Source: Candidatus Polarisedimenticolia bacterium
GTDB lineage: Bacteria > Acidobacteriota > Polarisedimenticolia > Gp22-AA2 > AA152
Reading direction: 5' to 3'
Assembly (NCBI GenBank): GCA_036004685.1
Contig: DASYRE010000028.1
Coordinates: forward strand, 1 to 37,055
DNA length: 37,055 bases
Shown here in pieces: positions 17,707 through 36,356 of this stretch. The stretch's first letter is position 1, and every line of letters starts with the position of its first letter. The notes under the pieces were generated by a model. That model searched no databases and was not told the DNA's origin. It was given only the letters and a program-made list of their open reading frames with translations. A program made the position numbers and the translations under genes.

Positions 17707-17955
17707 ATGACGTCTGCGAACGATCCAGGTCACTGCCGGTTCCTCTCGAGCCTGGGAGGGATCTACCAGTGCGCCGATCTCGTCTACCGCGAGGGCTTCT
17801 GCCGTTTCCACTTCGAAGCCTTCCTCAAGGGAGAGGTCCAGGCCAACGGCCAGATCGACGAGCGGGTGTCGGATCAGCACCGGCGCCGCGACATCAACTA
17901 CCACGGCCTCCCGCCGGAGGCGGTCTCCCCGGCGCCCGATCCCACTCAACGCTGA
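17707..17955 (+). CDS. small Cys/His-containing hypothetical protein
   Basis: 82 residues. ATG at 17707 has GGAG five bases upstream, which favours it over the GTG 15 bases earlier. Cysteines at residues 10, 22 and 32 with H35 (C-R-F-L, Y-Q-C-A-D, G-F-C-R-F-H) suggest a zinc site or metal cluster. The C-terminal half is charged with no motif. No family recognised. Its last 10 bases overlap the end of mltG on the other strand. Confidence 0.6.
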   Translation: MTSANDPGHCRFLSSLGGIYQCADLVYREGFCRFHFEAFLKGEVQANGQIDERVSDQHRRRDINYHGLPPEAVSPAPDPTQR

Positions 17956-19001
17956 TACTTCTGCACCGCCCGGGTGTGCTCCTCGAGATTCGAGGAGAAG
18001 GTATGCCGGCCGTTGTTCATCGAGACGAAAAACAGGTACTCCGTCCGATCGGGGAACAGGGCCGCCTGCAGCGCGCCTTTTCCCGGATTGGCGATCGGGC
18101 CGGGCGGCAGTCCCGGATAGGCGTAGGTGTTGTATCGCGAATCGAGCTCCAGGTCCCGGCGCGTGATGAAACCGTGGTAACGGCCCCGCATCGCCAGCGC
18201 GTAGATGATCGTCGGATCGCATTGAAGTTTCATTCCCTTTGCCATCCGGTTGTGGAACACCGAGGAGACCAGGCCTCGCTCCTCGGGACGCGCGGTTTCC
18301 TTCTCGATCAGAGAGGCGAGGGTCACCGCGTCGCGCATCGTGAGGCGCACGGCGCGGGCCTGCTCGTTCCACTCCGGCGTCCAGAGGCCCAGGTGATGAT
18401 CGACCATCTGCTCGACGATTTGCCGGGAGGTCGCCCCGCGGGCGAGAAGGTAGGTGTCGGGGAACAGGTAGCCCTCCAGGTCCGTCGCGGCGGCATCCAG
18501 CGCCGCGATCTTGGAAACATCCTGGAACGCCTCGTGGAATTCCTCTTCCGATCCGAACCCTTCGCGGAGGAAAATCGAGAAGATGTCGGCGCTGCGCAGT
18601 CCCTCGGGAACGGTCACCTTGTGATAGAAGATCTCCCCCCGGATCAGCTTGTCGAGAACCTGTGGCGCGGTCAGGGGACGTTCGAACAGGTACTCCCCCG
18701 CCTTCAAGTCGCCGGTGTGCCCCGTGGCGAGCAGGTAGATTCTCCCGAACGGCCCGGAGCGGATCACCCCCCGCTGCTCCAGGATGCGCAGAACGTCCTG
18801 CGCGGGACGACGCGGGATCTCCAGGACGAGACGGCGCCCCGCGTAGCCGCGGTAAGGCACCGACGACCACAGATAATAGAAGACAAGGCCCATCATCACC
18901 GGAGTCCAGAGGAAGACTCCGAGGAAGATCAGGATCGTCTTCACGGTAGAGCGGGCGCGCGAGCGCTCCCGGCGCGTCCCCCGGCGCGGCGCCGCGGTCA
19001 T
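17946..19001 (-). CDS. mltG: endolytic murein transglycosylase MltG
   Basis: 351 residues. A basic cytoplasmic N-terminus (1-20) precedes one membrane helix (about 21-45). A LysM-like region (about 55-120) is followed by the YceG catalytic domain, with VPEGLRSADIF, the active-site Glu233 in LASLIEKET, and the C-terminal signature YNTYAYPGLPPGPIANPG. MltG cuts nascent glycan strands in the periplasm and sets where chain elongation ends. The start overlaps the ruvX stop by 4 bp. The ruvX-mltG pairing is common in bacteria. Nothing is missing from the catalytic core. Confidence 0.93.
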   Translation of the reverse strand: MTAAPRRGTRRERSRARSTVKTILIFLGVFLWTPVMMGLVFYYLWSSVPYRGYAGRRLVLEIPRRPAQDVLRILEQRGVIRSGPFGRIYLLATGHTGDLKAGEYLFERPLTAPQVLDKLIRGEIFYHKVTVPEGLRSADIFSIFLREGFGSEEEFHEAFQDVSKIAALDAAATDLEGYLFPDTYLLARGATSRQIVEQMVDHHLGLWTPEWNEQARAVRLTMRDAVTLASLIEKETARPEERGLVSSVFHNRMAKGMKLQCDPTIIYALAMRGRYHGFITRRDLELDSRYNTYAYPGLPPGPIANPGKGALQAALFPDRTEYLFFVSMNNGRHTFSSNLEEHTRAVQKYQR

Positions 19002-19429
19002 CCCGGCTCTCCCGGCGCGCCGGCCGCGTCGAGAAAGCCCTGCAGGATGAGACTCGCGGCCATTCCGTCGATCACTTCCTTGCGGCGCGCGCGGCTCACA
19101 TCCGCCTCGATGAGCCGGCGCTCCGCTTCCCGCGTGGTGAGGCGCTCATCCCAGGTGACGACCGGAACCTTCGTGGTTCCCCGCAGACGGCGCACCAGAT
19201 CCATCGCCCGCTCGGCGCTCTTCCCCGGGGTCCCGTCCAGGCGCACGGGAAGCCCGACCACGACCCGGGCGACCTCGTGCTCCTCGAGCAGCGCCCGGAT
19301 CCGGGCCAGGTCCTTCTTCCAGCTGGCGCGCTCGATGGGCGGAAGCGGAGAGGCGGTCCAACCCAGCGGATCGCTCAAGGCCACCCCGATGCGGCGCTCG
19401 CCCACGTCCAGCCCCAGGCACCGACTCAT
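18998..19429 (-). CDS. ruvX: Holliday junction resolvase-like RuvX/YqgF
   Basis: 143 residues, the usual length. RNase-H-like fold with LDVGERRIGVALSD (first Asp at residue 8), VVVGLPVRLDG, VVTWDERLTT (the central acidic motif), and the final Asp in VIDGMAASLILQGFL. YqgF proteins act in pre-16S rRNA 5'-end maturation and resemble Holliday junction resolvases. ATG preceded by GGGAGGAAGGA. It is the first gene of the ruvX-mltG pair. Confidence 0.92.
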   Translation of the reverse strand: MSRCLGLDVGERRIGVALSDPLGWTASPLPPIERASWKKDLARIRALLEEHEVARVVVGLPVRLDGTPGKSAERAMDLVRRLRGTTKVPVVTWDERLTTREAERRLIEADVSRARRKEVIDGMAASLILQGFLDAAGAPGEPG

Positions 19430-19530: not shown

Positions 19531-20427
19531 ATGACCGGCGCGCCGCCGACCTTCCGCCAGAAGACCCTACTTCTCCTGCAAGAGCTGCAAGAGCTTCTCC
19601 AGGAGCGCGGAGCCCTGCCCGCCGAGGAAGTCTGTCGCGTGCTGCTCCGGGTCCCGCGGATCCAGCCGGCGATCGCGGCGCGGATCGTCGGGGAGATCGT
19701 CTCGGGGGACCGGCGGTTCCGGTTCGTTCCCGATGGCTCCATCGTCCTGGCGACGAGCCCGACGCTGCCTTCCGGACCTCTGCGGGCGGCGAGCTTCACC
19801 GTCGTGGACCTGGAGACGACCGGCGGCTCCCACGCGAGCGATCGAATCCTCGAGGTGGGCGCCGTGCGCGTCGAAAACGGCCGAATCGGAGAGTCCTTCG
19901 CCTCGCTGATCAATCCGGGCGTGCCGATTCCGCCCTTCGTCGCCTCCATGACCGGGATCGACGACGGCATGGTCGCCGCCGCCCCGTCGTTCGCCGCGGT
20001 GGCCGAGAGCCTCTCGGCCTTCATCGGCGAAACGGTGTTCGTCGCCCACAACCTCCCCTTCGATCTCGGGTTCCTCAATCGCGAGCTCGAGAGAAGCTCC
20101 GGGTTCATCCTGTCCAATCCCTCCCTGTGCACCGTCCGGCTGGGCCGCCGCCTCCTTCCGAACCTCCCGGATCGGCGGCTCGACACCCTCGCCGACTATT
20201 ATGGATTCACGTTCGCGGGGAGGCATCGCGCCCTGGGCGACGCCGCGGTGACCGCCCGCCTCCTCCTGAAGTTCATCGGATTGCTCGAAGAGCGGGGCGT
20301 GGAGGATCTCGTCGGGGTGGAGGCGTTCCTGGCGGGCGGGGCGGGGGAAACGGAAGAGCGGATCAGCGACGGGAGCCCCCGGCCGCGGCCCCGGCGCCCG
20401 GATCCGTCTTCCAATGGCGGATCTTGA
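19531..20427 (+). CDS. DEDDh 3'-5' exonuclease (DnaQ/PolC epsilon-like)
   Basis: 298 residues. An N-terminal helical region (1-70) precedes the exonuclease domain (about 86-255). The five catalytic residues are visible: D and E in VDLETTG, D in VAHNLPFDLGFL, and H and D in HRALGDAAVT. These are DEDDh features of the epsilon proofreading subunit and related free-standing exonucleases. The C-terminal 40 residues are Gly/Arg/Pro-rich and disordered. The N-terminal part, which resembles a winged-helix-like region, is not part of ordinary DnaQ, so it may not be the replicative proofreader. Its 3' end overlaps the cytochrome gene on the other strand by 65 bp. Confidence 0.9.
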   Translation: MTGAPPTFRQKTLLLLQELQELLQERGALPAEEVCRVLLRVPRIQPAIAARIVGEIVSGDRRFRFVPDGSIVLATSPTLPSGPLRAASFTVVDLETTGGSHASDRILEVGAVRVENGRIGESFASLINPGVPIPPFVASMTGIDDGMVAAAPSFAAVAESLSAFIGETVFVAHNLPFDLGFLNRELERSSGFILSNPSLCTVRLGRRLLPNLPDRRLDTLADYYGFTFAGRHRALGDAAVTARLLLKFIGLLEERGVEDLVGVEAFLAGGAGETEERISDGSPRPRPRRPDPSSNGGS

Positions 20428-21883
20428 TCATGTACGCGGTCGGATCGAAGTCGGGGCTGTTCTCCGGGGTGTGGCAGGGGCGGCAGGTATCGAGATTCGC
20501 CGCGCCGTATCCCTTCCCGACCGTCTCCGGGTGGCCCTTGCCCGGGCCGTGGCACGACTCGCATTGCACGTTCATCAAGTCGGGAGTCGATTTGGCGTTG
20601 ACGTAGCCCGTGGGCTTCCGAAAGCCGGTGGTGTGGCAGCCGACGCATTCCGGATTGTAGTCCTGGTGCTTTTCCTCCAGGATGCGGAATGCATGAGCGT
20701 GCTTCGTTTCCTCCCAGATCCGGTATTCCTCGGCGTGGCAGTCCTTGCACGCGCCGGATTGAACGTATGCGGCGCCCTCGTACATCGCGATCATCTTCTT
20801 GACGTCGACCAGGGGCGCTTCCTTCCGGTTGATCTCGTTGATCGCCAGCCGGTTCGCCGTCACGAGATCCATGATCGCCGAATCGTCCGGCACGTTCTTT
20901 CCAAGGTTCACCAGGATCGGATTCAGCCGGGGCGGCTTTCCCGGGTCCAGGAAAACGCGGATCTCCCCGAGCTTCTTGCCCTGATTGCCGGCGTAGACGA
21001 TGCGCGAAGGCGGAGTGTTCGGCCCGGCGGGAATCTCCTCGGTCGTCTGGACGGCGCCGAATCCGCCCAGGAGGGCATCGATTCCCGGAACCTCCTTGGA
21101 AAGCGCCTTGGCCTCTTCGAGCTCCAGCGTCACCAGCGCGACGACCAGATCCGATTTCTTTTTCAGGGCGGGAACCGCCCGGCGCGCCGCCTCGACCGGA
21201 TCGGAGGTGACGATGCGCCGGCCCTCGGGGGTCTTCTGGGAGAAGCCGGCGTTCTGCCGCGCCAGGCCGAGAATCCCGAGGCGAATCTTGCCTTTCTTGG
21301 CTCCTGGGGCGCCCGCCCCGGAGCGCGGGACGCTGAGAATCAAGGTGGGCTGCAGGAACGGCTCGCCGCTGTCCTGATACACCATATTGGCGCTCACGAA
21401 CGGGAAGCTCGCCTTTTTCATCTCCTGCTGCAGTCGATCGAGACCGAAGTTGACCTCCCGCTCCCCGAGGTTCACGGCGGCATAGCCGATCCGCGTCATC
21501 CCTTCGGTGAGCGTCTGGGTGTTCTTCAGCCCTGCGGCGCTGCTGTCGCCGAAGTAGTCGCCCGCGTCGAGCCAGACCACAGGAGTGTTGGGGAAGGTTT
21601 TCTTGAGCTCCTTGCCGTAACCCGCCCGCCGGGCGAGTCCTCCCGAGGGGTTGTGCGGTCAGCCACAGGGTTCGGTCCAGCCCATCACCTCGCCGGCGTA
21701 GAGGATCACGAGATCCGGTATGGGGCCTTGCTGGACCGAGGAGCCGACTGGAAGGGTGGCGGAGGGAGGAGCGGCGGGCTCGCCCGGGCCCGCGGCCGCC
21801 ACGCCGAGCGCCGACGCCAGAAGGAGGCCAGCCCCGGCGAGGATCGCCAGGACACCTCGGGGCCAAAGATTTCTGCTTACCAC
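20363..21883 (-). CDS. secreted metallophosphatase-like / tetraheme cytochrome c with in-frame UGA (probable selenocysteine at residue 75)
   Basis: The minus frame from GTG 21883 to the stop at 20363 is continuous except for one TGA at 21659-21661; upstream and downstream parts are in the same phase (81 bases = 27 codons from the TGA to the next start-like codon). Residues 1-35 are a signal peptide. The next region (about 55-350) is 5'-nucleotidase/metallophosphatase-like: LVILYAGEVMGWTEPCG, the TGA, then PHNPSGGLARRAGYG, VVWLDAGDYFGD and AAVNLGEREVNFG. Family members usually read EPCGC at the TGA, so UGA replaces Cys. Four CxxCH hemes follow at residues 379, 413, 441 and 467, resembling cytochrome c-554-like modules. 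Total 506 residues. A perfect -10 lies upstream. Start GTG has GGGGGAG nearby. Alternatives: nonsense mutation or base error. Confidence 0.72.
21625..21650 (-). other. SECIS-like hairpin after the in-frame UGA
   Basis: Counting from the base after the UGA, bases 9-11 (CCC) pair with 32-34 (GGG), then U13-G30 and C14-G29, then 15-17 (GGG) pair with 26-28 (CCC), leaving an eight-base loop AGGACUCG at 18-25. One C-C mismatch (12/31) interrupts the stem. Bacterial SECIS elements need a short hairpin with G in the apical loop roughly 16-37 bases after the UGA; the loop G19-G20 lies where it does in the classic fdhF element as I recall it. Confidence 0.5.
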
Positions 21884-22002: not shown

Positions 22003-22266
22003 ATGGCGGCGTCGAGCGGCAGGATTCTCCTCTGGACTCTCCTCGGAGGCGTGTTCGGAACCGCCCTGGGGGAGATCCTCGGCCGTCTCCTCCCGGTGAA
22101 CTCGCTGACCCGGTTCCTGACCGCCAGCGTCGCCCTGGGCACGTCCCATCCCCTGACGCTCGATCTGAGAATCGCGGAATTGACCTTGGGCATGCTGCTG
22201 CGGGTGAGCCTTCTCGGATTGGTCGGAACCGCGGTCGTTTTCATCGCGCAATTGAAGCGCTCGTGA
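22003..22266 (+). CDS. DUF4321 small membrane protein
   Basis: 87 residues, hydrophobic, with about three predicted helices. The pattern of glycine-rich first helix (LLWTLLGGVFGTALGEILGRLLP), the LTASVALGTSHPLTLDLRI strand-like stretch and the last helix (LLRVSLLGLVGTAVVFIAQ) is that of DUF4321, a membrane family often found just before maf in Firmicutes and Acidobacteria. Function unknown. GGGAGGCGAAGG precedes the ATG. Its stop overlaps an alternative GTG start of maf. Confidence 0.75.
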   Translation: MAASSGRILLWTLLGGVFGTALGEILGRLLPVNSLTRFLTASVALGTSHPLTLDLRIAELTLGMLLRVSLLGLVGTAVVFIAQLKRS

Positions 22267-22274
22267 AGGACACG

Positions 22275-22871
22275 ATGATTCCTCTGGATCGGCCTCTCAT
22301 CCTCGCTTCCGCTTCCTCCCGGCGTTGCGAGCTGCTGCGCTCGGCGGGCCTGCAATTCACCCAGCGGCCCTCCCGGATCGCCGAGGAGATCCTGCCGGGC
22401 GAGACGCCGGAGAGCTTCGTGCTTCGGATGGCCCGGGAGAAGGCGGATCGCGTCCGGCCCGACGCGCCCGAGCGCAGCCTCGTGCTCGGCTGCGACACGG
22501 TGGTGGTCGCGGGAAGCAGGCTCCTCGGGAAGCCGCGCGATCGGGCCGATGGCCGGAGGATGCTGCGCTCCTTGATGGGCCGATCCCACCTGGTGCTCAG
22601 CGGCATCGCGATGCTCCTTCTTCCCGAGGCGCAGTGGGCCGTGGGGGTATCCGAGACCCGGGTCACGTTCCAGACGATCCCGTCTGCCGCGCTGGAGGCC
22701 TACCTCGACACCGGTGAGTACGCCGACAAAGCGGGAGCCTATGCCCTCCAGGGAGCCGCCGCCTTTTTCGTCGACAAGATCGAAGGCAGCGCCGCCAACG
22801 TCATCGGGCTGCCGCTCGATCTGCTGCCCCGCCTGTTTCGCGAGCTGGGGCTCTGGTTTCCGGAGGCCTGA
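22275..22871 (+). CDS. maf: Maf-like nucleotide pyrophosphatase
   Basis: 198 residues from the ATG at 22275, which has AAGGA just upstream; the GTG at 22263 would overlap the preceding stop as GTGA and add four residues. Signature motifs: LILASASSRRCELL (the usual Pro is Ser), then EEILPGETPESFVLRMAREKA, the catalytic DTVVV, and YADKAGAYALQGAAAFFV. Maf hydrolyses non-canonical or methylated nucleotides (dTTP, UTP and modified forms) and limits their entry into nucleic acid. Cotranscribed with DUF4321. Confidence 0.93.
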   Translation: MIPLDRPLILASASSRRCELLRSAGLQFTQRPSRIAEEILPGETPESFVLRMAREKADRVRPDAPERSLVLGCDTVVVAGSRLLGKPRDRADGRRMLRSLMGRSHLVLSGIAMLLLPEAQWAVGVSETRVTFQTIPSAALEAYLDTGEYADKAGAYALQGAAAFFVDKIEGSAANVIGLPLDLLPRLFRELGLWFPEA

Positions 22872-22912
22872 GCCCGCCGCCTCCCCCCGCCCCCGCGTCG
22901 CTCCTCCTCTTC

Positions 22913-22941
22913 TTGATCCCGGCCCGGCGGGACCCTACATT
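22913..22941 (+). promoter_or_regulatory. sigma-70-type promoter of the [2Fe-2S] gene
   Basis: TTGATC (22913-22918), 17-bp spacer, TACATT (22936-22941); the ATG lies at 22983. Each box is four of six to consensus. Confidence 0.45.
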
Positions 22942-22982
22942 GGCACGGAAGAGCCTCTCCGCCTTCAGGATGGCCCGATACC

Positions 22983-23258
22983 ATGGAAACGAGTCTTCTC
23001 GATGATTACGAAAAAGAGATCCGGATCCGGATCGCCGGGAAGGAGTTCGTGGTTCCGGAGAACAACACCTTGCTGCGGATCCTGCAGCACCTCTCCTTCG
23101 AGATCTCGTACAGCCGTTTCTGCTGGAACGGCGATTGCCACAATTGCATCTTCGCCTACCGCGCGGGAGCCCTCGAGAAGAAGGCTCTCGCCTGCCGCGT
23201 CAAAGTGACGGAAGGAATGGAGATCTGCGGGCTGCCCGAGGGAATTTCCTTTAACTAG
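22983..23258 (+). CDS. small plant-type [2Fe-2S] ferredoxin-like protein
   Basis: 91 residues. Residues 12-25 (EIRIRIAGKEFVVPENNTLL) begin a beta-grasp fold. The cluster ligands are C-x4-C-x2-C (FCWNGDCHNC, about residues 47-54) and the fourth Cys in LACRV about 17 residues on; a fifth Cys follows in EICGLPEG. This spacing is plant-type [2Fe-2S]. It is a small stand-alone member, so it probably acts as an electron carrier for an unknown partner. It is convergent with gcvPB, three bases away. Confidence 0.8.
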   Translation: METSLLDDYEKEIRIRIAGKEFVVPENNTLLRILQHLSFEISYSRFCWNGDCHNCIFAYRAGALEKKALACRVKVTEGMEICGLPEGISFN

Positions 23259-27600: not shown

Positions 27601-27635
27601 CGATTTCTCCGATGAATCTCTTCCAGGGAGGCCGC

Positions 27636-27665
27636 ATACTAGCGCACGCCCGAGGGGGGTGTCAA
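27636..27665 (-). promoter_or_regulatory. sigma-70 promoter of the gcvT-gcvH-gcvPA-gcvPB operon
   Basis: Minus strand: perfect -35 TTGACA (27660-27665), 18-bp spacer, -10 TAGTAT (27636-27641). The leader is about 30 bases. It is divergent from phoB and separated from its operators by about 90 bp. Confidence 0.7.
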
Positions 27666-27752
27666 ATGCGCCCGCCGCGGCGAGAATCGGCGTTTAAGCC
27701 CAACAAATCAGGGATATTCTCGGCTTCCCCCCGGCCCCCGATCGCGCATCGC

Positions 27753-27804
27753 GTCACCCAAGTGTCACCCCTTCGTCACCGGTTCTCTTCAAGTTCTCCT
27801 CAAA
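27753..27804 (+). promoter_or_regulatory. PhoB operator (Pho boxes) before phoB
   Basis: GTCAC occurs at 27753, 27764 and 27775, exactly 11 bp apart, the period of PhoB half-sites. Directly after are two 11-base repeats, TTCTCTTCAAG (27783-27793) and TTCTCCTCAAA (27794-27804), which may be further degenerate half-sites slightly out of phase. A perfect -10 TATAAT follows at 27848-27853 with no matching -35, consistent with activator dependence and phoB autoregulation. Confidence 0.7.
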
Positions 27805-27881
27805 CTGGGAGGCGCGTTCGATCCGCCGCCGACGGCGGGCGTCGCACTATAATCGGAGAATCGATCTCGAGGAGACTCCTC

Positions 27882-28586
27882 ATGTCCCAGAGCGTGCTGG
27901 TGGTCGACGACGAGCGAGACATCGTCGAGCTCGTCCGCTACCATCTCGTGCAGGCCGGGTTCCGGGTTCATGCCGCGGCGGACGGCAAGCAGGCGCTCGA
28001 TCTGGCGCGCCGGGAGCGCCCCGATCTCATCGTGCTCGATCTCATGCTTCCCGCCTTTCCCGGCACGGAGGTGGCGCGCCTTCTCCGGCAGGACGAGAAG
28101 ACCCGCAGGATTCCGATCCTCATGCTCACGGCGCGGGGCGAGGAGGTGGACCGGGTGGTGGGCTTCGAGCTGGGAGCGGACGACTACGTCGTCAAGCCCT
28201 TCTCGCCGCGCGAGCTGGTCCTGCGCGTCCAGGCTATCTTGAGGCGGGAAGGGCACGATCCGGAAGAGATCGAAAGGCCCCTCGTCTTCGATCCGCTGGT
28301 CATCGATCTCGCGTCGCATTCGGTCCGGCTGAGAGGCAGCGAGGTCGATCTCACTTCCACGGAGTTCAAGCTCCTCCACCGGCTGGCCCGCCGCCCCGGC
28401 CGCGCCTTCAGCCGCGAGCAGCTGCTCAGCGAAGTGTGGGGCTACGGGGGCGACGTGGAGACCCGCACCGTCGACACTCATGTCAAGCGTCTCCGGGCGA
28501 AGCTCGGCGCGGCGGGAGAGTGGATCCAGACGGTGCGCGGGGTCGGCTACCGCTTCCGGCCCGACGGCTCCGATTCATCCGACTGA
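27882..28586 (+). CDS. phoB: phosphate regulon response regulator PhoB
   Basis: 234 residues; GAGGAG precedes the ATG. Receiver domain 1-120: acidic pocket VVDDE, phospho-acceptor D53 in IVLDLMLP, and the conserved Lys K105 in DYVVKPFSPREL. The winged-helix DNA-binding domain (about 135-230) has LTSTEFKLLHRLARRPGRA, SREQLLSEVWGYG and the recognition helix RTVDTHVKRLRAKLG. It is an OmpR/PhoB-type regulator. PhoR follows 12 bases later and the pst genes lie downstream, which supports the PhoB name. It is expected to bind the GTCAC arrays before itself and before the porin. Confidence 0.93.
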   Translation: MSQSVLVVDDERDIVELVRYHLVQAGFRVHAAADGKQALDLARRERPDLIVLDLMLPAFPGTEVARLLRQDEKTRRIPILMLTARGEEVDRVVGFELGADDYVVKPFSPRELVLRVQAILRREGHDPEEIERPLVFDPLVIDLASHSVRLRGSEVDLTSTEFKLLHRLARRPGRAFSREQLLSEVWGYGGDVETRTVDTHVKRLRAKLGAAGEWIQTVRGVGYRFRPDGSDSSD

Positions 28587-28598
28587 AAAGGAACGCCT

Positions 28599-30356
28599 CT
28601 GAGGCTTCGCGACCGTCTGACTCTTTCCTTCGCCCTGGTGGCCGGGCTTTCGACGCTGCTCACCGGCCTGTTCTTCTATCGCATCGTCGGATCCTACCTC
28701 TCCGATCGCGCCTCCGCCGAGCTGGGGCTCGAGTCCCGCCTCGTGCAGAGGATGCTGCTCACGGAGAAGGACCTAGCCGCGACGGCGGATGAAAGGGCGG
28801 ATGAATACGGGCGGGATCTCGGCGTCCGGGTCACGATCGTCGCCGCCGACGGCAAGGTCCTGGGGGATACGGATCTGGACGGGGAGGAGCTGGCGCGCGT
28901 CGAGAACCACGGGCACCGGCCGGAAATCGCCGGCGCGCTGCGGGAAGGCGCGGGCACGTCGCAGCGCTACAGCAGCACGCTCGGCCAGACGCTCCTGTAC
29001 GTCGCTCGCCGCATCGATCCCGACGATGCAAGCCGCGGAGTGGTCCGGCTCGCCCTCCCCCTCACCGCCGTCCGCAGCGCGCGGAGCCACCTTCTTCTCC
29101 TCCTGATCCTTCCTCTTCTCCTCTCCGTCCTGTGCGCCGTGGTCCTCGGATGGATGCTGGCCCGCCGCACCGCCCGAAGGCTGGAGGACATGGCGCGCGC
29201 CGCCTCGGAGATCGCGGCGGGAAGGAGCGCGGCCCGCGTCCGGCCGGGGGGAAGCGACGAGATGGATCACCTCGCCCGCTCGCTGAACCGGATGGCCGAG
29301 GAGCTGGAAAAGAGACTGCTGCTGCTCTCCCGCGAGCGCCACCAGCTCCAGTCGGTCGTCGACGGGATGGTGGAGGGGGTCCTCCTCACCGACGCCGAGG
29401 GAACGATCCTGCTGGCGAACGGCGCCTTCGAGAGGATCTTCGACGCCAGCGCGCCCCTCGCGGGAAGGCGTCCGCTGGAGGTGGCGCGGGTGCCGGCCCT
29501 GCAGGAGATCCTCGAGCAGGCCCGCCACGCCACGGCCCCTTTCCACCGCGAGATCGCCCTCGGAGGCTCGGCCGACAAGACGCTGCAGGCCAGCCTGGCT
29601 CCGGTGCGCGAGGAGGGGCGGATCGTGGGGACGGTGGCCGTGTTCCACGACATCACCGAGCTCAAGCGCCTGGAGAGGGTCCGGCGGGAGTTCGTGGCGA
29701 ACGTGTCGCACGAGCTGCGGACGCCTCTCACAGCGATCCGGGGATACGCGGAGACGCTGCGGGACGGCGGGTTGAAGGATCCGGAGAAGGCGGCCGAGTT
29801 CGTCCGGGTCATCCACCGCCATGCCGAGAGGCTCCAGGCGCTCATCGCCGATCTCCTCGATCTCTCGCGGGTGGAGCAGGGGAAGGCGAAGCTGAGCCTC
29901 GGTCCGGTGCCGCTTCGCGACGTCGCGGCGCAGGCGGAGGCGGTGATCCTGCCGCTGGCCCGACGCAAGAATCAGCGAGTGCTCCTCGACCTCCCTGACA
30001 CTCTCCCCTCTCCGTGGGCCGATCGCGATCGGCTGGCCCAGGTTCTGATCAACCTGATGGACAACGCGGTGAAATTCACGCCGGACGGCGGCGAGATCGT
30101 CCTTTCCGGCTCGGCCCGCGAAGGGTACGTCGACCTCCGGGTGACCGACACCGGGATCGGCATCCCGCCCGCCGAGATCGAGCGCGTCTTCGAGCGCTTC
30201 TATCGGGTCGAACGGTCGCGCGACCGCCGGGAGGGGGGCACCGGTCTGGGCTTGGCGATCGCCAAGCACCTCACCCTGGCAATGGGGGGGACCCTCGAAG
30301 TCGAGAGCACTCCCGGCGAGGGGACCTCCTTCCGGCTCACCCTGCCGGCAGCCTGA
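28599..30356 (+). CDS. phoR: phosphate regulon sensor histidine kinase PhoR
   Basis: 585 residues from CTG (28599), which has AAGGA a few bases upstream. The next in-frame start, GTG at 28638, would cut into the first membrane helix (about residues 7-28, LTLSFALVAGLSTLLTGLFF). A periplasmic part (about 30-150), helix two (about 160-182) and a HAMP linker are followed by a PAS domain (about 245-355, ITELKRLERV at its end). His371 in VANVSHELRTPLTAIRG is the phosphorylated residue. The catalytic domain has NLMDNAVKFTPDGG (N box), DTGIGIPPAE and GGTGLGLAIAKH (G boxes). It controls PhoB with input from PstSCAB and PhoU. Confidence 0.92.
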   Translation: MRLRDRLTLSFALVAGLSTLLTGLFFYRIVGSYLSDRASAELGLESRLVQRMLLTEKDLAATADERADEYGRDLGVRVTIVAADGKVLGDTDLDGEELARVENHGHRPEIAGALREGAGTSQRYSSTLGQTLLYVARRIDPDDASRGVVRLALPLTAVRSARSHLLLLLILPLLLSVLCAVVLGWMLARRTARRLEDMARAASEIAAGRSAARVRPGGSDEMDHLARSLNRMAEELEKRLLLLSRERHQLQSVVDGMVEGVLLTDAEGTILLANGAFERIFDASAPLAGRRPLEVARVPALQEILEQARHATAPFHREIALGGSADKTLQASLAPVREEGRIVGTVAVFHDITELKRLERVRREFVANVSHELRTPLTAIRGYAETLRDGGLKDPEKAAEFVRVIHRHAERLQALIADLLDLSRVEQGKAKLSLGPVPLRDVAAQAEAVILPLARRKNQRVLLDLPDTLPSPWADRDRLAQVLINLMDNAVKFTPDGGEIVLSGSAREGYVDLRVTDTGIGIPPAEIERVFERFYRVERSRDRREGGTGLGLAIAKHLTLAMGGTLEVESTPGEGTSFRLTLPAA

Positions 30357-30649
30357 TCGCGCTGGCCAGCCACCCCACGACAACGCCGCGACCTCGTGAC
30401 GGGTTCGTCACGCGCCCGCGGCCGGTCGCCCGCGGCCGTCGTCGCCGCTTTCGAGCGCATGCCTTCGCGCAGTACGCACCAGAAACTCGTCACCGAGTTG
30501 CCACTCTCACGCCGTAATGCCGTCACCTCACCGTGACATTGTGACGGCCGATTGGGCCGACCGGCGAGGCCGATCGGCCCGCCAAAGGGGAGTGCCGGCA
30601 GAAAGGAGGGGCATCGAGACTCGGAAAATGCCGGCCCGGATCCCGGCTT
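30357..30649. other. non-coding stretch between phoR and the porin Pho boxes
   Basis: No supported gene. Scattered GTCAC/GTGAC motifs occur at 30399 (GTGAC), 30409 (GTCAC), 30489 (GTCAC), 30522 (GTCAC), 30533 and 30541 (GTGAC), most of them not at 11-bp spacing; two form an inverted pair GTCAC-ctcacc-GTGAC at 30522-30537. No convincing terminator is visible. Confidence 0.5.
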
Positions 30650-30700
30650 GTCACGTCCCGCTCACACCGTTGTCACGCTTCCGTCACAGAACGGTTCTAT
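30650..30700 (+). promoter_or_regulatory. PhoB operator (four Pho box half-sites) before the porin-pst-phoU genes
   Basis: GTCAC at 30650, CTCAC at 30661, GTCAC at 30672 and GTCAC at 30683 are each exactly 11 bp apart. The last half-site ends about seven bases before a -10-like TTCTAT (30695-30700), the position expected when PhoB replaces the -35. The ATG of the porin is at 30745. Confidence 0.8.
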
Positions 30701-30744
30701 CGTCCGGCCTGAAGTCAGGCCCAACGCATGGAGGAATCCGAGCG

Positions 30745-31890
30745 ATGTCCCCGTCGAAGGCCCTCGTCCTGGCCCTGGCCGCTCTCGCGAGCCTCGCACC
30801 GGCTTTCAACCAATCGGTTTCCGCGCAGGTCACCCCCGCGGCGGGATACACGGGCGCGGACGACACGCCGACCGTGAAGGTCGGAGGGACCATCTTCACC
30901 GACTACACCTATACCGACGAGCCGACCACGCTGGACGTCGATGGGAATGAAATCCATCCCACCGCGTTCGACGTGAAGCGGGCGTACCTCAACGTCACCG
31001 GCACGCTGCATCATCTCATCGGCTTTCGCATCACGCCCGACATCGTGCGGGAGACCGGATCGGGCGGCAACGTCGACGGCAGCCTGACCTTCCGGCTCAA
31101 GTACGCCTACGGACAGTTCAACTTCGACGACGCCTGGTCGAAAGGATCCTGGGTCCGGCTCGGCCTCCAGCAGACCCCCTACGTCGACTACGCCGAATCG
31201 GTCTATCGCTATCGGTTCCAGGGGCCCACGTTCGCCGACGCCGAGAAGTACATCACCTCATCGGATTTCGCCCTGTCGGCCCACTACAACTTCCCCGGCA
31301 ACTTCGGCGACCTGCACGCCGGCTACTACAACGGCGACGGCTACACCAAGGCCGATCCCAACGATCAGAAGGCGATTCAGATCCGGGCGACGCTGCGGCC
31401 CGTCCCGAACGGGGGGATCATCAAAGGGCTGCGGCTCACCGCCTTCTACGACGCCGACCATTACGCCAGCGACGACGCTCGGACCCGACTGATCCTCAAC
31501 GCCACCTTCGAGCACAAGTACGTGAACGCCAGCGTCGAGCATCTCGACGCCAAGGACCAGCTCACCGCCGCCGCGCCGGAAATCGAAGGAAAAGGGTGGT
31601 CGGTGTGGGTCGTGCCGAAGTTCACCAGAACCCCTCAATCCCGCGATGGCTCCCCGCCCCCCGCGGCGGTGGGACAATGGGAGATGCTCCTTCGGTGGGA
31701 TCGGTTGAAGCCCGACACGGACGTGGAGGCCGAGAAGGAGCGGAAGATCGCGGGGGTGGCCTACTGGTTCGCGATTCAGAGGCCGGTCGCCGCGTCCCTG
31801 CTGCTGGACTATGAAGAAGTCACCTACGATCCCTTGCTGGCGAAGCCCGATGAGAAGCGTTACGCCCTGCACGCTCTTTTCAACTTCTAG
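30745..31890 (+). CDS. OprP/OprO-like phosphate porin
   Basis: 381 residues from the ATG at 30745 (GGAGGA about 10 bases upstream; longer frames lack the signal peptide). Signal peptide about 1-27 (ALVLALAALASLAPAFNQS, cut near SAQ). The mature protein is a chain of alternating aromatic beta strands such as VKVGGTIFTDYTYTDE, FRLKYAYGQFNF, WVRLGLQQTPYVDY and AGYYNGDGY, ending in Phe (LHALFNF), the usual outer-membrane C-terminus. The pattern is of the OprP/OprO (PF07396) family. Placement behind four Pho boxes and before pstS makes phosphate or polyphosphate uptake its likely job; OprP-type porins are phosphate-selective by basic residues in the channel, which I cannot place here. Confidence 0.83.
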   Translation: MSPSKALVLALAALASLAPAFNQSVSAQVTPAAGYTGADDTPTVKVGGTIFTDYTYTDEPTTLDVDGNEIHPTAFDVKRAYLNVTGTLHHLIGFRITPDIVRETGSGGNVDGSLTFRLKYAYGQFNFDDAWSKGSWVRLGLQQTPYVDYAESVYRYRFQGPTFADAEKYITSSDFALSAHYNFPGNFGDLHAGYYNGDGYTKADPNDQKAIQIRATLRPVPNGGIIKGLRLTAFYDADHYASDDARTRLILNATFEHKYVNASVEHLDAKDQLTAAAPEIEGKGWSVWVVPKFTRTPQSRDGSPPPAAVGQWEMLLRWDRLKPDTDVEAEKERKIAGVAYWFAIQRPVAASLLLDYEEVTYDPLLAKPDEKRYALHALFNF

Positions 31891-31918
31891 CGCCGCGGCG
31901 CTCTTTCAGACGAGGTCG

Positions 31919-32959
31919 ATGACGATGAAGATGCTCTCGAGGGTCTTCCTGGTCCTGCTCCTGGTTCTCGGCTGCACCTCGCCTCCTCCGCCGATCGCCG
32001 CGCCCATGCAGATCAACGGCGCCGGCGCGACGTTCCCCTACCCGATCTACTCCAAGTGGTTCTCCGAATACAACAAGCTCCATCCCGACGTGCAGATCAA
32101 CTACCAGTCGATCGGCTCGGGAGGAGGCATCCGGCAGCTCTCCAATCAGACCGTCTTCTTCGGGGCCACCGACGGCCCGATGACCCCCGAGCAGCAGCTC
32201 GGAGCCCCCGGGCCCATCCTGCACTTTCCGACGGTCCTGGGCGCGGTGGTTCCCGTCTACAACCTGCCCGGGGTCGACGCCGAGCTCAAGTTTTCCGGCC
32301 AGGTCCTCGCCGACATCTTCCTGGGGAAGATCACCAAGTGGAACGACCCCGCCCTGGCCAAGGACAATCCGTCGGTGAGTCTCCCGGCCCAGGAGATCAC
32401 CGTCGTCCATCGCTCCGACGGCTCGGGCACTTCCTACATCTGGTGCGAATACCTCTCCAAGGTATCGCCCGAATACCGCAAGACGGTGGGCGTGGCCACG
32501 GCGGTGAACTGGCCCGTCGGACTGGGCGGCAAAGGGAACGAAGGGGTGGCCGGGCTCGTCAAGCAGACTCCCGCCTCCCTCGGATACGTCGAGCTGATCT
32601 ACGCGCTGCAGAACAAGATCCCTTTCGGCTCGGTGCGCAACGCCGACGGGGAGTTCGTCCGGGCGTCGGTCGAAGCGGTCACGGCCGCGGCCGCCTCAGC
32701 CGCCACGAAGATGCCCGCCGATTTCCGCGTCTCGATCACCAACGCCCCGGGAAAAGGCGTCTATCCGGTCTCCTCGTTCACCTGGCTGCTGTATTATCAG
32801 AACCCCAAGGACAAGCAGCGCGGCCGGATCATGGTGGACTTCCTGAAGTGGGCGCTCAGCGACGGACAGCGCTTCGCCGGCGAGCTGGGGTACGCCCCGC
32901 TTCCCGAGGCGGTCGTGAAGCTCGAGATGGCCGCGCTGGGCAAGGTCAAGACGAAGTAG
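31919..32959 (+). CDS. pstS: phosphate ABC transporter substrate-binding protein PstS (lipoprotein)
   Basis: 346 residues from ATG 31919 (GAGG a few bases before; ATG at 31925 or 31931 also possible). A lipobox LVLGC puts Cys19 as the lipid-modified N-terminus, unusual for a Gram-negative PstS. The fold begins QINGAGATFPYPIYSKWF, then YQSIGSGGGIRQL (phosphate-binding loop), GATDGPMTPEQ, HRSDGSGTSYIW (second binding loop) and GKGNEGVAGLVKQ. It captures phosphate in the periplasm for PstCAB. 28 bases from the porin, in one transcript. Confidence 0.94.
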   Translation: MTMKMLSRVFLVLLLVLGCTSPPPPIAAPMQINGAGATFPYPIYSKWFSEYNKLHPDVQINYQSIGSGGGIRQLSNQTVFFGATDGPMTPEQQLGAPGPILHFPTVLGAVVPVYNLPGVDAELKFSGQVLADIFLGKITKWNDPALAKDNPSVSLPAQEITVVHRSDGSGTSYIWCEYLSKVSPEYRKTVGVATAVNWPVGLGGKGNEGVAGLVKQTPASLGYVELIYALQNKIPFGSVRNADGEFVRASVEAVTAAAASAATKMPADFRVSITNAPGKGVYPVSSFTWLLYYQNPKDKQRGRIMVDFLKWALSDGQRFAGELGYAPLPEAVVKLEMAALGKVKTK

Positions 32960-32975
32960 ATCTCGAGAGGCTCCG

Positions 32976-33932
32976 ATGCCTTGGGTTTCGCCGTCCTCGA
33001 CGAGCTCGCGGGAAGGAAAGGCGTTCCGATGGGTGACCGGAGCGGCGGCGGCTCTCGTTCTCCTCGCCGTGGCCGGGATCGCCGTGACCCTGACGCGCGA
33101 CTCGTGGCTTTCGATCCAGAAGTTTGGCTTGAGCTTCTGGAGGACTACGATCTGGGATCCGGTCGCCGGACAATTCGGCGCCCTTCCCTTCCTCTGGGGA
33201 ACGCTCTACTCGTCGCTGCTGGCGCTGCTCCTGTCGACGCCGATCGCGCTGGGCATCGCGATCTTCCTGTCCGAGATCTCGCCGCACGCCCTGAAGCGGC
33301 CGCTGGTGTTCCTCACCGAGCTGCTGGCCGCCATCCCCTCCATCGTCTACGGCATGTGGGGGATCTTCGTCCTCGTCCCTGCGGTACGAATCCTGGAGGC
33401 GCACGTCCCGGGATGGCTGCGGGCGACGCCGTTCTTCAGCGGCCCTCCTTTGGGGATCGGGCTTCTGGCGGCGTCCCTGGTCCTGTCGGTGATGATCATT
33501 CCGTTCACGGCGAGCGTTGCGCGGGAGATCCTCAAGGCGGTGCCGTTCCATCAGAGGGAGGCGGCTTACGCGCTCGGCGCCACGCGCTGGGAGGCGATCC
33601 GAATGACCCTCTATTACGGGCGGACCGGAATCCTGGGAGCGATCATGCTGGGCCTGGGAAGAGCCCTGGGGGAGACGATGGCCGTGACGATGGTGATCGG
33701 GAACAATCCTCAGATCTCTCTTTCGCTGTTCGCTCCCCAGTACACGATGGCCGCCGTCCTGGCCAACGAATTCACCGAAGCGGCGGATGATCTCTATCTC
33801 CACGCACTCGTGGAGATCGGCCTCGTCCTGTTCATCGTCACGGTGGCCATCAATTCCCTGTCCCGGCTCTTGATCTGGCGCGTGGGCGGCGCCGGAAAGC
33901 GCTCGGCCAGCGCTTCGGCGGTTCTCGGATGA
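32976..33932 (+). CDS. pstC: phosphate ABC transporter permease PstC
   Basis: 318 residues with about six membrane helices after a Ser-rich N-terminus (1-18). Helix one is about 19-41 (WVTGAAAALVLLAVAGIAVT). Typical features: FLWGTLYSSLLALLLSTPIALG, AAIPSIVYGMWGIFVL, and the cytoplasmic EAA loop REAAYALGATRWEAIRMTL, which contacts the ATPase. The residues ALGETMAVTMVIGN near residue 230 are typical of PstC. ATG preceded by GAGAGG. Stop overlaps pstA by 4 bp. Confidence 0.95.
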   Translation: MPWVSPSSTSSREGKAFRWVTGAAAALVLLAVAGIAVTLTRDSWLSIQKFGLSFWRTTIWDPVAGQFGALPFLWGTLYSSLLALLLSTPIALGIAIFLSEISPHALKRPLVFLTELLAAIPSIVYGMWGIFVLVPAVRILEAHVPGWLRATPFFSGPPLGIGLLAASLVLSVMIIPFTASVAREILKAVPFHQREAAYALGATRWEAIRMTLYYGRTGILGAIMLGLGRALGETMAVTMVIGNNPQISLSLFAPQYTMAAVLANEFTEAADDLYLHALVEIGLVLFIVTVAINSLSRLLIWRVGGAGKRSASASAVLG

Positions 33933-34786
33933 GGCTCGTGCGCCATCCGATCCGGCGAAAGGCGGTGTCGGCCGCGTTCGTGGTTTTCTGCGGCGCCTCC
34001 GTCCTCCTCGCCTTGATTCCGCTCGCCTTCATCCTGTTCTTCGTCCTGAAGCAAGGCCTTCCCTCCCTGAGCCTCGATTTCTTCACACGGACGCCCCAGC
34101 CCGTGGGAGAGGCGGGCGGGGGAATGGCCAACGCGATGGTCGGAACGGTGGTGCTGATCGGCATCGCCGCCCTCCTGGCCGTCCCCGTCGGGGTCCTCAC
34201 GGGAATCTACCTCTCGGAATACCGTAAGAGCTCCCTGTCGACGGCGGCCCGCTTCGCCGCCGACGTCCTGAACGGAGTCCCGTCGATCGTCGTCGGGATC
34301 TTCGCCTATGGCCTGGCGGTCCTTCCCTTCCGGAGGTTCTCCGCGCTGGCGGGAGGGCTGGCGCTCGGGGTGATGATGATCCCGCTCATCGTCCGGACCA
34401 CGGAGGAGCTGCTGAACCTGGTTCCCGAGACCCTGCGCGAGGGGGCCTTGGCCCTCGGGGCGACGCGGGCGCGGGCGGTTTTCCGTGTTATCCTCCCGGC
34501 GGCGCTTCCCGGCATCCTGACGGGAGTGCTGGTGGCGCTCGCGCGCATCGCGGGCGAGACGGCGCCGCTGCTGTTCACCTCGTTCAACAACCGGTACTGG
34601 TCGACCCGTCTCGACCAGCCGATGGCGTCGCTGACGGTGCAGATATTCACCTACGCCATCTCCCCATACGAGGACTGGCACCGGCAGGCCTGGGCCGGCG
34701 CGACGGTCTTGATCTTCGCCGTCCTCCTGTTCTCGATCCTGGCCCGCGTCGCCACCGCGCGTCTCGAGAGGATGCACCGCCCATGA
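33929..34786 (+). CDS. pstA: phosphate ABC transporter permease PstA
   Basis: 285 residues, about six helices. After a basic start, helix one is about 15-37 ([19 protein letters not shown]). [36 protein letters not shown], the EAA loop [20 protein letters not shown] and [15 protein letters not shown] are PstA features. Starts at the ATGA overlap with pstC and ends overlapping pstB by 4 bp, so the three transporter genes are tightly coupled. Confidence 0.95.
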
Positions 34787-35634
34787 TGCGGACCTCCGCC
34801 CCCGAGCGGCCGATGCCTCCGATGGTCCGCCCGATGCCTCCGGAAGGACGCGAAGGGCAATCCCGCGGCGAGCCCTCCGGCGTCTCGCGGGTGTCGATCC
34901 AGAACCTGAGCTTCTATTACGGCGACCGGCGGGCCCTGGCTGGAATCTCCCTGGAGGTTCCCGACCGCAGCGTCACCGCCATCATCGGCCCTTCCGGTTG
35001 CGGCAAGTCGACGCTCATCAAGTCGATCAACCGGATCGCCGAGATCGGCACCACGATTCGGGTCGAAGGAGAGGTGCTCTTCGACGGCAAGGACGTCTAC
35101 GCGCCGGGCACCGATCTCGTGGATCTGCGCCGGCGCGTCGGCATGCTGTTCCAGAAACCGAACCCCTTCCCCAAATCGATCTTCGAGAACGTCGCCTTCG
35201 GCCCCCGGATCCATCGAAGCGCGCGGCGCTCCGATCTGGAGGGGGTCGTCGAGAAGAGCCTGAGGCAGGCGGCGCTGTGGGAAGAGGTCCGCGACCGGCT
35301 CCACACGTCCGCCATCGCCCTTTCGGGAGGCCAGCAGCAGCGTCTCTGCCTGGCCCGGGTGCTGGCGGTGGATCCCGAGGTGATCCTCATGGACGAGCCC
35401 TGTTCCGCCCTCGACCCGATCTCCACCGCCCGCATCGAGGAGCTGATCGAGGAGCTGCGCAAGAGCTACACGGTCGTGATCGTCACGCATAACATGCAGC
35501 AGGCGGCCCGCGTCTCCGATCGGACCGCCTTCCTCTTGAGCGGCGAGCTGATCGAAATGGGCGACACCGCCAAGATCTTCACGAACCCCTCGGATCGCCG
35601 CACCGAGGATTACATCACCGGCCGATTCGGCTAG
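34783..35634 (+). CDS. pstB: phosphate ABC transporter ATPase PstB (N-terminally extended)
   Basis: 283 residues against about 250-260 in usual PstB. The added first 35 residues are Pro/Met/Arg/Glu-rich ([17 protein letters not shown]) with no homology to the fold. The domain begins about residue 36 ([16 protein letters not shown]). Walker [10 protein letters not shown] (69-77), Q-loop [13 protein letters not shown], signature [16 protein letters not shown], Walker [13 protein letters not shown] and switch [11 protein letters not shown]. The extension is in frame with the ATGA overlap start; a later start near the domain is possible but would remove coupling. Confidence 0.95.
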
Positions 35635-35651
35635 ACGGAGGAGCGCTCCGC

Positions 35652-36356
35652 GTGGAACACACCAGCCGGCAGTACGAGCGGGAGCTGCAGGAGCTGAAGG
35701 ACAAGATTCTTCTGCTCGGCGGCACGGTCGAGATGATGATCGCCTCCGCCATGAAGTCGCTGCTGAACCGTGATTCCGATCTGGCCCGCAGCGTCATCGC
35801 CTCGGATCCGCGCGTCGACAACGCGGAGCTCGAAATCGATCACCTTTCGGTGAGCCTTCTGGCGCTCCGGCAGCCCGCCGCCTCCGATCTCCGCTTCATC
35901 ACGACCGCCCTGAAGATCGTCACCGACCTCGAGCGCATCGGCGATCTCACGGTGAACATCGCGGAGCGGGCGATCGAGCTGAACGAGGAGCCGCCGCTCA
36001 AGCCGTACATCGACGTCCCCCGGATGGCCTCGACCGCGGCGGGGATGGTCCACCAGGCGCTGGACGCCTTCGTGAACCGCAACCCGGCCGAGGCCCAGGA
36101 AGTGCTCAGCCAGGACGAGGGCGTGGATCGGCTCAACGTCCAGCTGTTCCGCGAGCTCTTGACCTACATGATCGAGGATCCCAAGAGCGTCACCCGCGCC
36201 CTGCGGATCACGTTCATCGCCAAGTATCTCGAGCGCGTCGCCGATCACGCCACGAACATCGCCCAGATGGTGATCTACCTCTGTGAAGGCCGCGACGTCC
36301 GGCATCCCTCCGCCGCGAAGCTCCCGCCGGGCGGCTCGACGCCCGCGGCGCCCTGA
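35652..36356 (+). CDS. phoU: phosphate signalling protein PhoU
   Basis: 234 residues from GTG 35652 with GGAGGAG upstream. Two three-helix bundles, each with the metal-binding E/D-x-x-x-D signature: ASDPRVDNAELEIDHLSV (about 56-75) and QDEGVDRLNVQLFRELL (about 155-172), and the paired KIVTDLERIGDLTVNIAERA and KYLERVADHATNIAQMV. PhoU links PstSCAB to PhoR and keeps the regulon off when phosphate is ample. Last gene of the pst operon, 17 bases after pstB. Confidence 0.95.
   Translation: MEHTSRQYERELQELKDKILLLGGTVEMMIASAMKSLLNRDSDLARSVIASDPRVDNAELEIDHLSVSLLALRQPAASDLRFITTALKIVTDLERIGDLTVNIAERAIELNEEPPLKPYIDVPRMASTAAGMVHQALDAFVNRNPAEAQEVLSQDEGVDRLNVQLFRELLTYMIEDPKSVTRALRITFIAKYLERVADHATNIAQMVIYLCEGRDVRHPSAAKLPPGGSTPAAP

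Follow-up and report, generated by a model that had tools for sequence, protein, structure and literature searches.

The question raised by this locus is whether a single in-frame TGA, at positions 21659–21661 on the minus strand, ends a gene or is translated as selenocysteine (Sec). The window, that is, the whole 37,055-nucleotide stretch of DNA analysed, holds one continuous minus-strand frame that runs from a GTG at 21883, the likely start codon, to a TGA terminator at 20365–20363, and the only internal TGA in it is codon 75. With UGA read as Sec, the gene (20363–21883, minus strand, terminal TGA included) would encode 506 residues, arranged as an N-terminal hydrophobic signal, a 5′-nucleotidase-like domain and a C-terminal cytochrome c554-like domain. 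The translation around the TGA is VMGWTEPCG-U-PHNPSGGLARRAGY. The initial annotation had described this frame, with its one TGA, EPCG before it and PHNPSGGLARR after it, and proposed a selenoprotein; the description is accurate but for one detail taken up below, and every comparative test run, covering the Sec machinery, the TGA/Cys site and a covarying SECIS hairpin, supported the proposal. We put the probability that the gene encodes a Sec-decoded member of the UshA-like family at about 0.95.

If the TGA were a true stop, the result of a recent nonsense mutation or a mark of a pseudogene, the product would be a 74-residue stub, or translation would re-initiate at a possible GTG start downstream of the TGA, at 21580, from which an ORF of 405 amino acids extends. 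The presence of that ORF favors termination, and it corrects the initial annotation, in which a stop would leave the hemes orphaned with no start of their own. The shorter ORF, however, has no export signal. The predicted signal (21791–21883, minus strand) is a hydrophobic helix within residues 1–31 of the full-length protein, spanning residues 9–30 in the structure model, and a re-initiated product lacking it could not have its hemes attached in the periplasm.

The site itself was followed through homologs from 60 related genomes and from the genome collection. A readable CGx..GG motif is present in 98 homologs, of which 36 have TGA as the site codon and 62 have TGC or TGT; about a dozen more loci, with an unreadable motif and often matching over the cytochrome part only, lie outside this count. 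The TGA genes comprise 22 of an Acidobacteriota type, the window's gene included, and 14 distant ones. In two alignments, the column of Sec75, the last residue of the motif Cys73-Gly74-Sec75 (CGU), holds Sec or Cys in all homologs, and the invariant columns of the family are C73, G74, C/U75, G81, G82 and the heme residues. Therefore, the UGA does stand at an expected Cys, as had been claimed, and other homologs share it. Non-Cys sense codons in relatives and a scrambled downstream frame had been named as signs against the selenoprotein reading; the relatives have TGA or Cys codons instead, with conservation on both sides. The recurrence of the same TGA in all 36 genes, within protein that is conserved before and after it, argues against a true stop.

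The same comparison bears on a sequencing or assembly error, in which the true codon would be TGC or TGT. The window does come from a single draft assembly (62 contigs), which leaves some room for such an error. Against this, the codon is independently TGA in the three same-family genomes and in the same-order homologs with a readable site, and protein identity with these is 40–62% on both sides of the TGA. A TGA shared by relatives, with identity kept either side, is attributable neither to chance nor to a base error, and we regard an error here as extremely improbable. We place at the same very low level the reading of UGA as some other amino acid, either through genome-wide recoding or through Trp suppression, in favor of which the analysis turned up nothing. 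The homologs without UGA have Cys at the aligned residue, TGA also terminates the window's gene and many of its homologs, and the genome encodes a tRNA-Sec with anticodon TCA.

On a maximum-likelihood tree made with the site masked, the Sec and Cys forms require at least six interchanges, and four of these changes are forced by well supported branches. One further homolog (L047, G025:C196:41982-43268), whose genome yielded no selA, has lost the first Cys of the CGU motif as well as the Sec/Cys, the segment reading LEDPGLARAPGGG; the motif can thus be lost. In three genomes (G004, G006 and G007), a second, TGA-free paralog is present beside the TGA copy, with about 31–33% identity and a longer open frame.

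Decoding of UGA as Sec needs a dedicated apparatus, and the initial annotation had counted a genome lacking selB and selC as evidence against its proposal. The survey of this genome (3.84 Mb, 62 contigs) found selA (563.9 bits), selB (302 bits, or 327 with its neighbour in the frame), selD and a tRNA-Sec whose TCA anticodon was called by ARAGORN. In addition, every genome from which a copy with TGA at this codon was fetched has selA above cut-off. The presence of the machinery is a further point against a true stop, which we consider very improbable on the whole. The likely course of events is as follows. The ribosome would decode the UGA at 21659–21661 as Sec, delivered by SelB and tRNA-Sec, with a hairpin at 21619–21639 positioning it. 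A second tRNA-Sec candidate (L010) was rejected, being a tRNA-Ser. The selD gene (G000:C8:40973-41899), outside the window, is itself a selenoprotein gene with an in-frame TGA, in SSGG-U-AAKL, and a likely SECIS hairpin with a GGA loop about 18 nt after the UGA can be read from its sequence. SelD with an in-frame UGA is a known kind of selenoprotein.

The candidate bacterial SECIS hairpin (21619–21639, minus strand) has a 9-bp stem that pairs +20 to +28 with +32 to +40 after the UGA, and its apical loop, GGC, is at 21628–21630, or +29 to +31. The bacterial SECIS model calls for a loop of 3–9 nt with a G in the first two positions, a stem of 4–16 bp, a spacing of 16–37 nt from the UGA and a minimum free energy of −7.5 kcal/mol or lower (PMC13188914). 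The hairpin agrees with the model throughout, with its GGC loop, 9 bp, 28 nt from the UGA and −14.7 kcal/mol. When the single sequence was folded and compared with shuffles, no excess stability was found (z about 0). Since energy is uninformative in a gene this rich in GC, a comparative test with synonymous shuffles was used instead.

The comparative test considered pairs that join two wobble positions, on which the protein places little constraint: +21:+39, +24:+36 and +27:+33. In the 22 Acidobacteriota-type Sec genes, these pairs are formed in 0.924 of cells, compared with 0.432 (sd 0.059) under the synonymous null, a value reached by none of 2000 shuffles. The shuffles preserve protein and codon usage but take no account of how closely the genes are related, and one of the genes tested is the one that first revealed the hairpin, so this probability should not be read as exact; leaving out the window's own gene does not alter the result. 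Among the pair types at +21:+39 are C-G, G-C, G-U and U-A. In eight Cys homologs drawn from the same relatives, the value is 0.417 against an expected 0.444, that is, no signal. This contrast between Sec and Cys genes is a stronger point than the shuffle probability. Covariation confined to TGA genes is also not what a true stop would leave behind.

The 14 distant TGA genes, from Thermodesulfobacteriota, Pseudomonadota and others, do not have the +29 hairpin as a group, with 50% of cells paired, which equals chance. In many of them, a stem closes a GGUCU-like loop at +19 to +20. The Acidobacteriota-type genes (L022–L052) have GGC, GGA or GUC loops at +29, a form also present in one distant gene, L054, from Myxococcales; the other distant Sec genes are L057–L126. 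For the Acidobacteriota type, the placement of the distant Sec genes (a hairpin at +9 to +34, loop at +18) was also tried and was rejected: it gives 65% of pairs versus 94% for +20 to +40. RNAalifold on all 36 Sec genes gave no clear common structure, which fits two SECIS placements, and Rfam at curated thresholds found nothing in the window. It may be new, in a modest way, that the Acidobacteriota-type SECIS loop appears to lie about 10 nt further downstream than that of most distant Sec genes. Together, two placements and repeated Sec/Cys changes at one site offer a natural test of SECIS movement within constrained coding sequence.

The initial annotation knew of no described selenoprotein in this cytochrome family. 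That statement has to be withdrawn, as the family is already on record. With Sec read as Cys, the protein scores 275.1 bits (E 1e-81) against NF041198, the NCBIfam model 'UshA-like (seleno)protein' (UshA_like_PCGU). The cut-off is 275; the score is just 0.1 bit above it, and a genome search that scores the two halves apart stays below. The PCGU/PCGC motif and the GG that follows are present (EPCGUPHNPSGG), the CGU/CGC site and the domain order are the same, profile positions 354–517, the cytochrome part, match residues 324–480, and nothing essential differs. With a score right at the cut-off, the protein is best described as a somewhat divergent member of the NF041198 family. UshA-like selenoproteins of the CxU kind (COG0737) were reported in 2008 from the Global Ocean Sampling survey (PMC2398784), and a 2026 review lists them as well (PMC13188914). 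The set in the survey shares the CxU motif, the UshA-type domain and the Sec/Cys pairs; it comes from marine reads, and the cytochrome domain is not mentioned there. A second model, NF049981 ('UshA-like (seleno)protein family 2'), whose motif is CxxU (PMC13188914), shares a UshA-type domain with Sec but matches only weakly, over residues 58–146, at 52.2 bits, far below its cut-off of 140. Without a rule for NF041198, gene callers would split the protein in two, a stub and a cytochrome lacking its N-terminal part; the many Acidobacteriota genomes that have the gene should therefore be annotated with the full-length product.

The initial annotation had also read the protein as a metallophosphatase-like domain joined to a tetraheme cytochrome, and fold and profile matches bear out both parts. 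The cytochrome part matches PF13435 (cytochrome c554) at 68.2 bits, with a cut-off of 20.8, and contains four heme-binding motifs, all on the minus strand: CKDCH (20735–20749, residue 379), CVGCH (20633–20647, residue 413), CESCH (20549–20563, residue 441) and CRPCH (20471–20485, residue 467). As the motifs imply, the N-terminal signal would export the chain, and four c-type hemes would be attached outside the cytoplasm. Cytochrome c554 (PF13435), ExtKL (NF040886) and MccSep (PDB 9wt8) are likewise multiheme c-type cytochromes, and the latter two also contain Sec; they are nevertheless different families, with matches limited to short cytochrome stretches.

The predicted 5′-nucleotidase/UshA-fold domain extends over about residues 54–355 (20819–21724, minus strand), and Cys73-Gly-Sec75 would be located within it. 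The structure model is confident here, with pLDDT values of about 90 or above at most of residues 55–350. It aligns with E. coli UshA (1ush) at Z 32.6, over 280 residues at 2.4 Å, and with SoxB (2wdc) at Z 31.2, and the sequence profile also matches nucleotidase structures. The fold is thus shared with the 5′-nucleotidases (UshA, CD73) and SoxB, with two differences, as follows. The place of the nucleotidase C-terminal domain is taken by the tetraheme cytochrome, and the metal-ligand positions are not conserved. In nucleotidases, the DxH, GD and GNH motifs hold metal ligands. When the protein was aligned to the nucleotidase 3ivd, DxH fell on E65/M67, immediately ahead of the CGU motif, and GNH on G140/E141/R142. 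The ligands of the two-metal site (DxH, GD, GNH, H and GHxH motifs) were not found, and their columns vary across the family. This lack of conserved nucleotidase metal ligands in the UshA-like selenoprotein family would be a modestly new observation.

Since the metal ligands vary while the CGU/CGC and heme motifs are invariant, the nucleotidase-like domain is probably no longer a metallophosphatase. It is tempting to propose that Cys73-Gly-Sec75 works with the four hemes as a redox or nucleophilic centre, a role to which we would give roughly even odds. Sec75, together with Cys73, would act on a substrate in what was the nucleotidase cleft and exchange electrons with the hemes. The cytochrome part is poorly predicted (pLDDT about 35–69), and the model is too uncertain for a Sec-to-heme distance. 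Alternatively, the domain could still be a hydrolase of the UshA/SoxB kind, in which Cys73 and Sec75 bind a metal or attack a sulfur substrate as nucleophile and the hemes have a separate task. The close match of the fold to UshA and to SoxB fits such an enzyme, and the metal could be held by Sec or Cys instead. Yet variation at the positions that match the DxH, GD and GNH metal motifs speaks against it, as does the tetraheme domain, which nearly all fetched homologs keep; those from the genome collection, however, were selected by a heme-motif pattern, which guarantees that they have it. A retained hydrolase seems to us possible, and on balance somewhat doubtful. As to the redox proposal, its fullest form would have a nucleotidase fold that lost its two-metal site become a heme-wired selenenyl redox enzyme, with a SECIS that moved, or arose twice, at one Sec site; we offer this combined account tentatively, at slightly less than an even chance.

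The neighbouring genes were checked for a functional partner and offered no hint of what the protein does. They are conserved in the nearest genomes, the flanking ORFs at 17946–19429 and 22191–23258 among them, which suggests that the gene was inherited vertically and belongs neither to a mobile element nor to a functional cluster. Two other features of the window may be recorded. At 22983–23258 on the plus strand is a gene for a 91-residue protein, 81–88% identical in same-family genomes, whose cluster motif, CWNGDCHNC, read by eye, makes it look like a 2Fe-2S ferredoxin-like protein. Further along, at 27612–36356 on the plus strand, lies an apparently complete and ordinary phosphate-response cluster which, as named by eye from the ORF translations, would comprise a response regulator, a sensor kinase, a porin-like protein, a phosphate-binding protein, two permeases, an ATPase and a PhoU-like protein.
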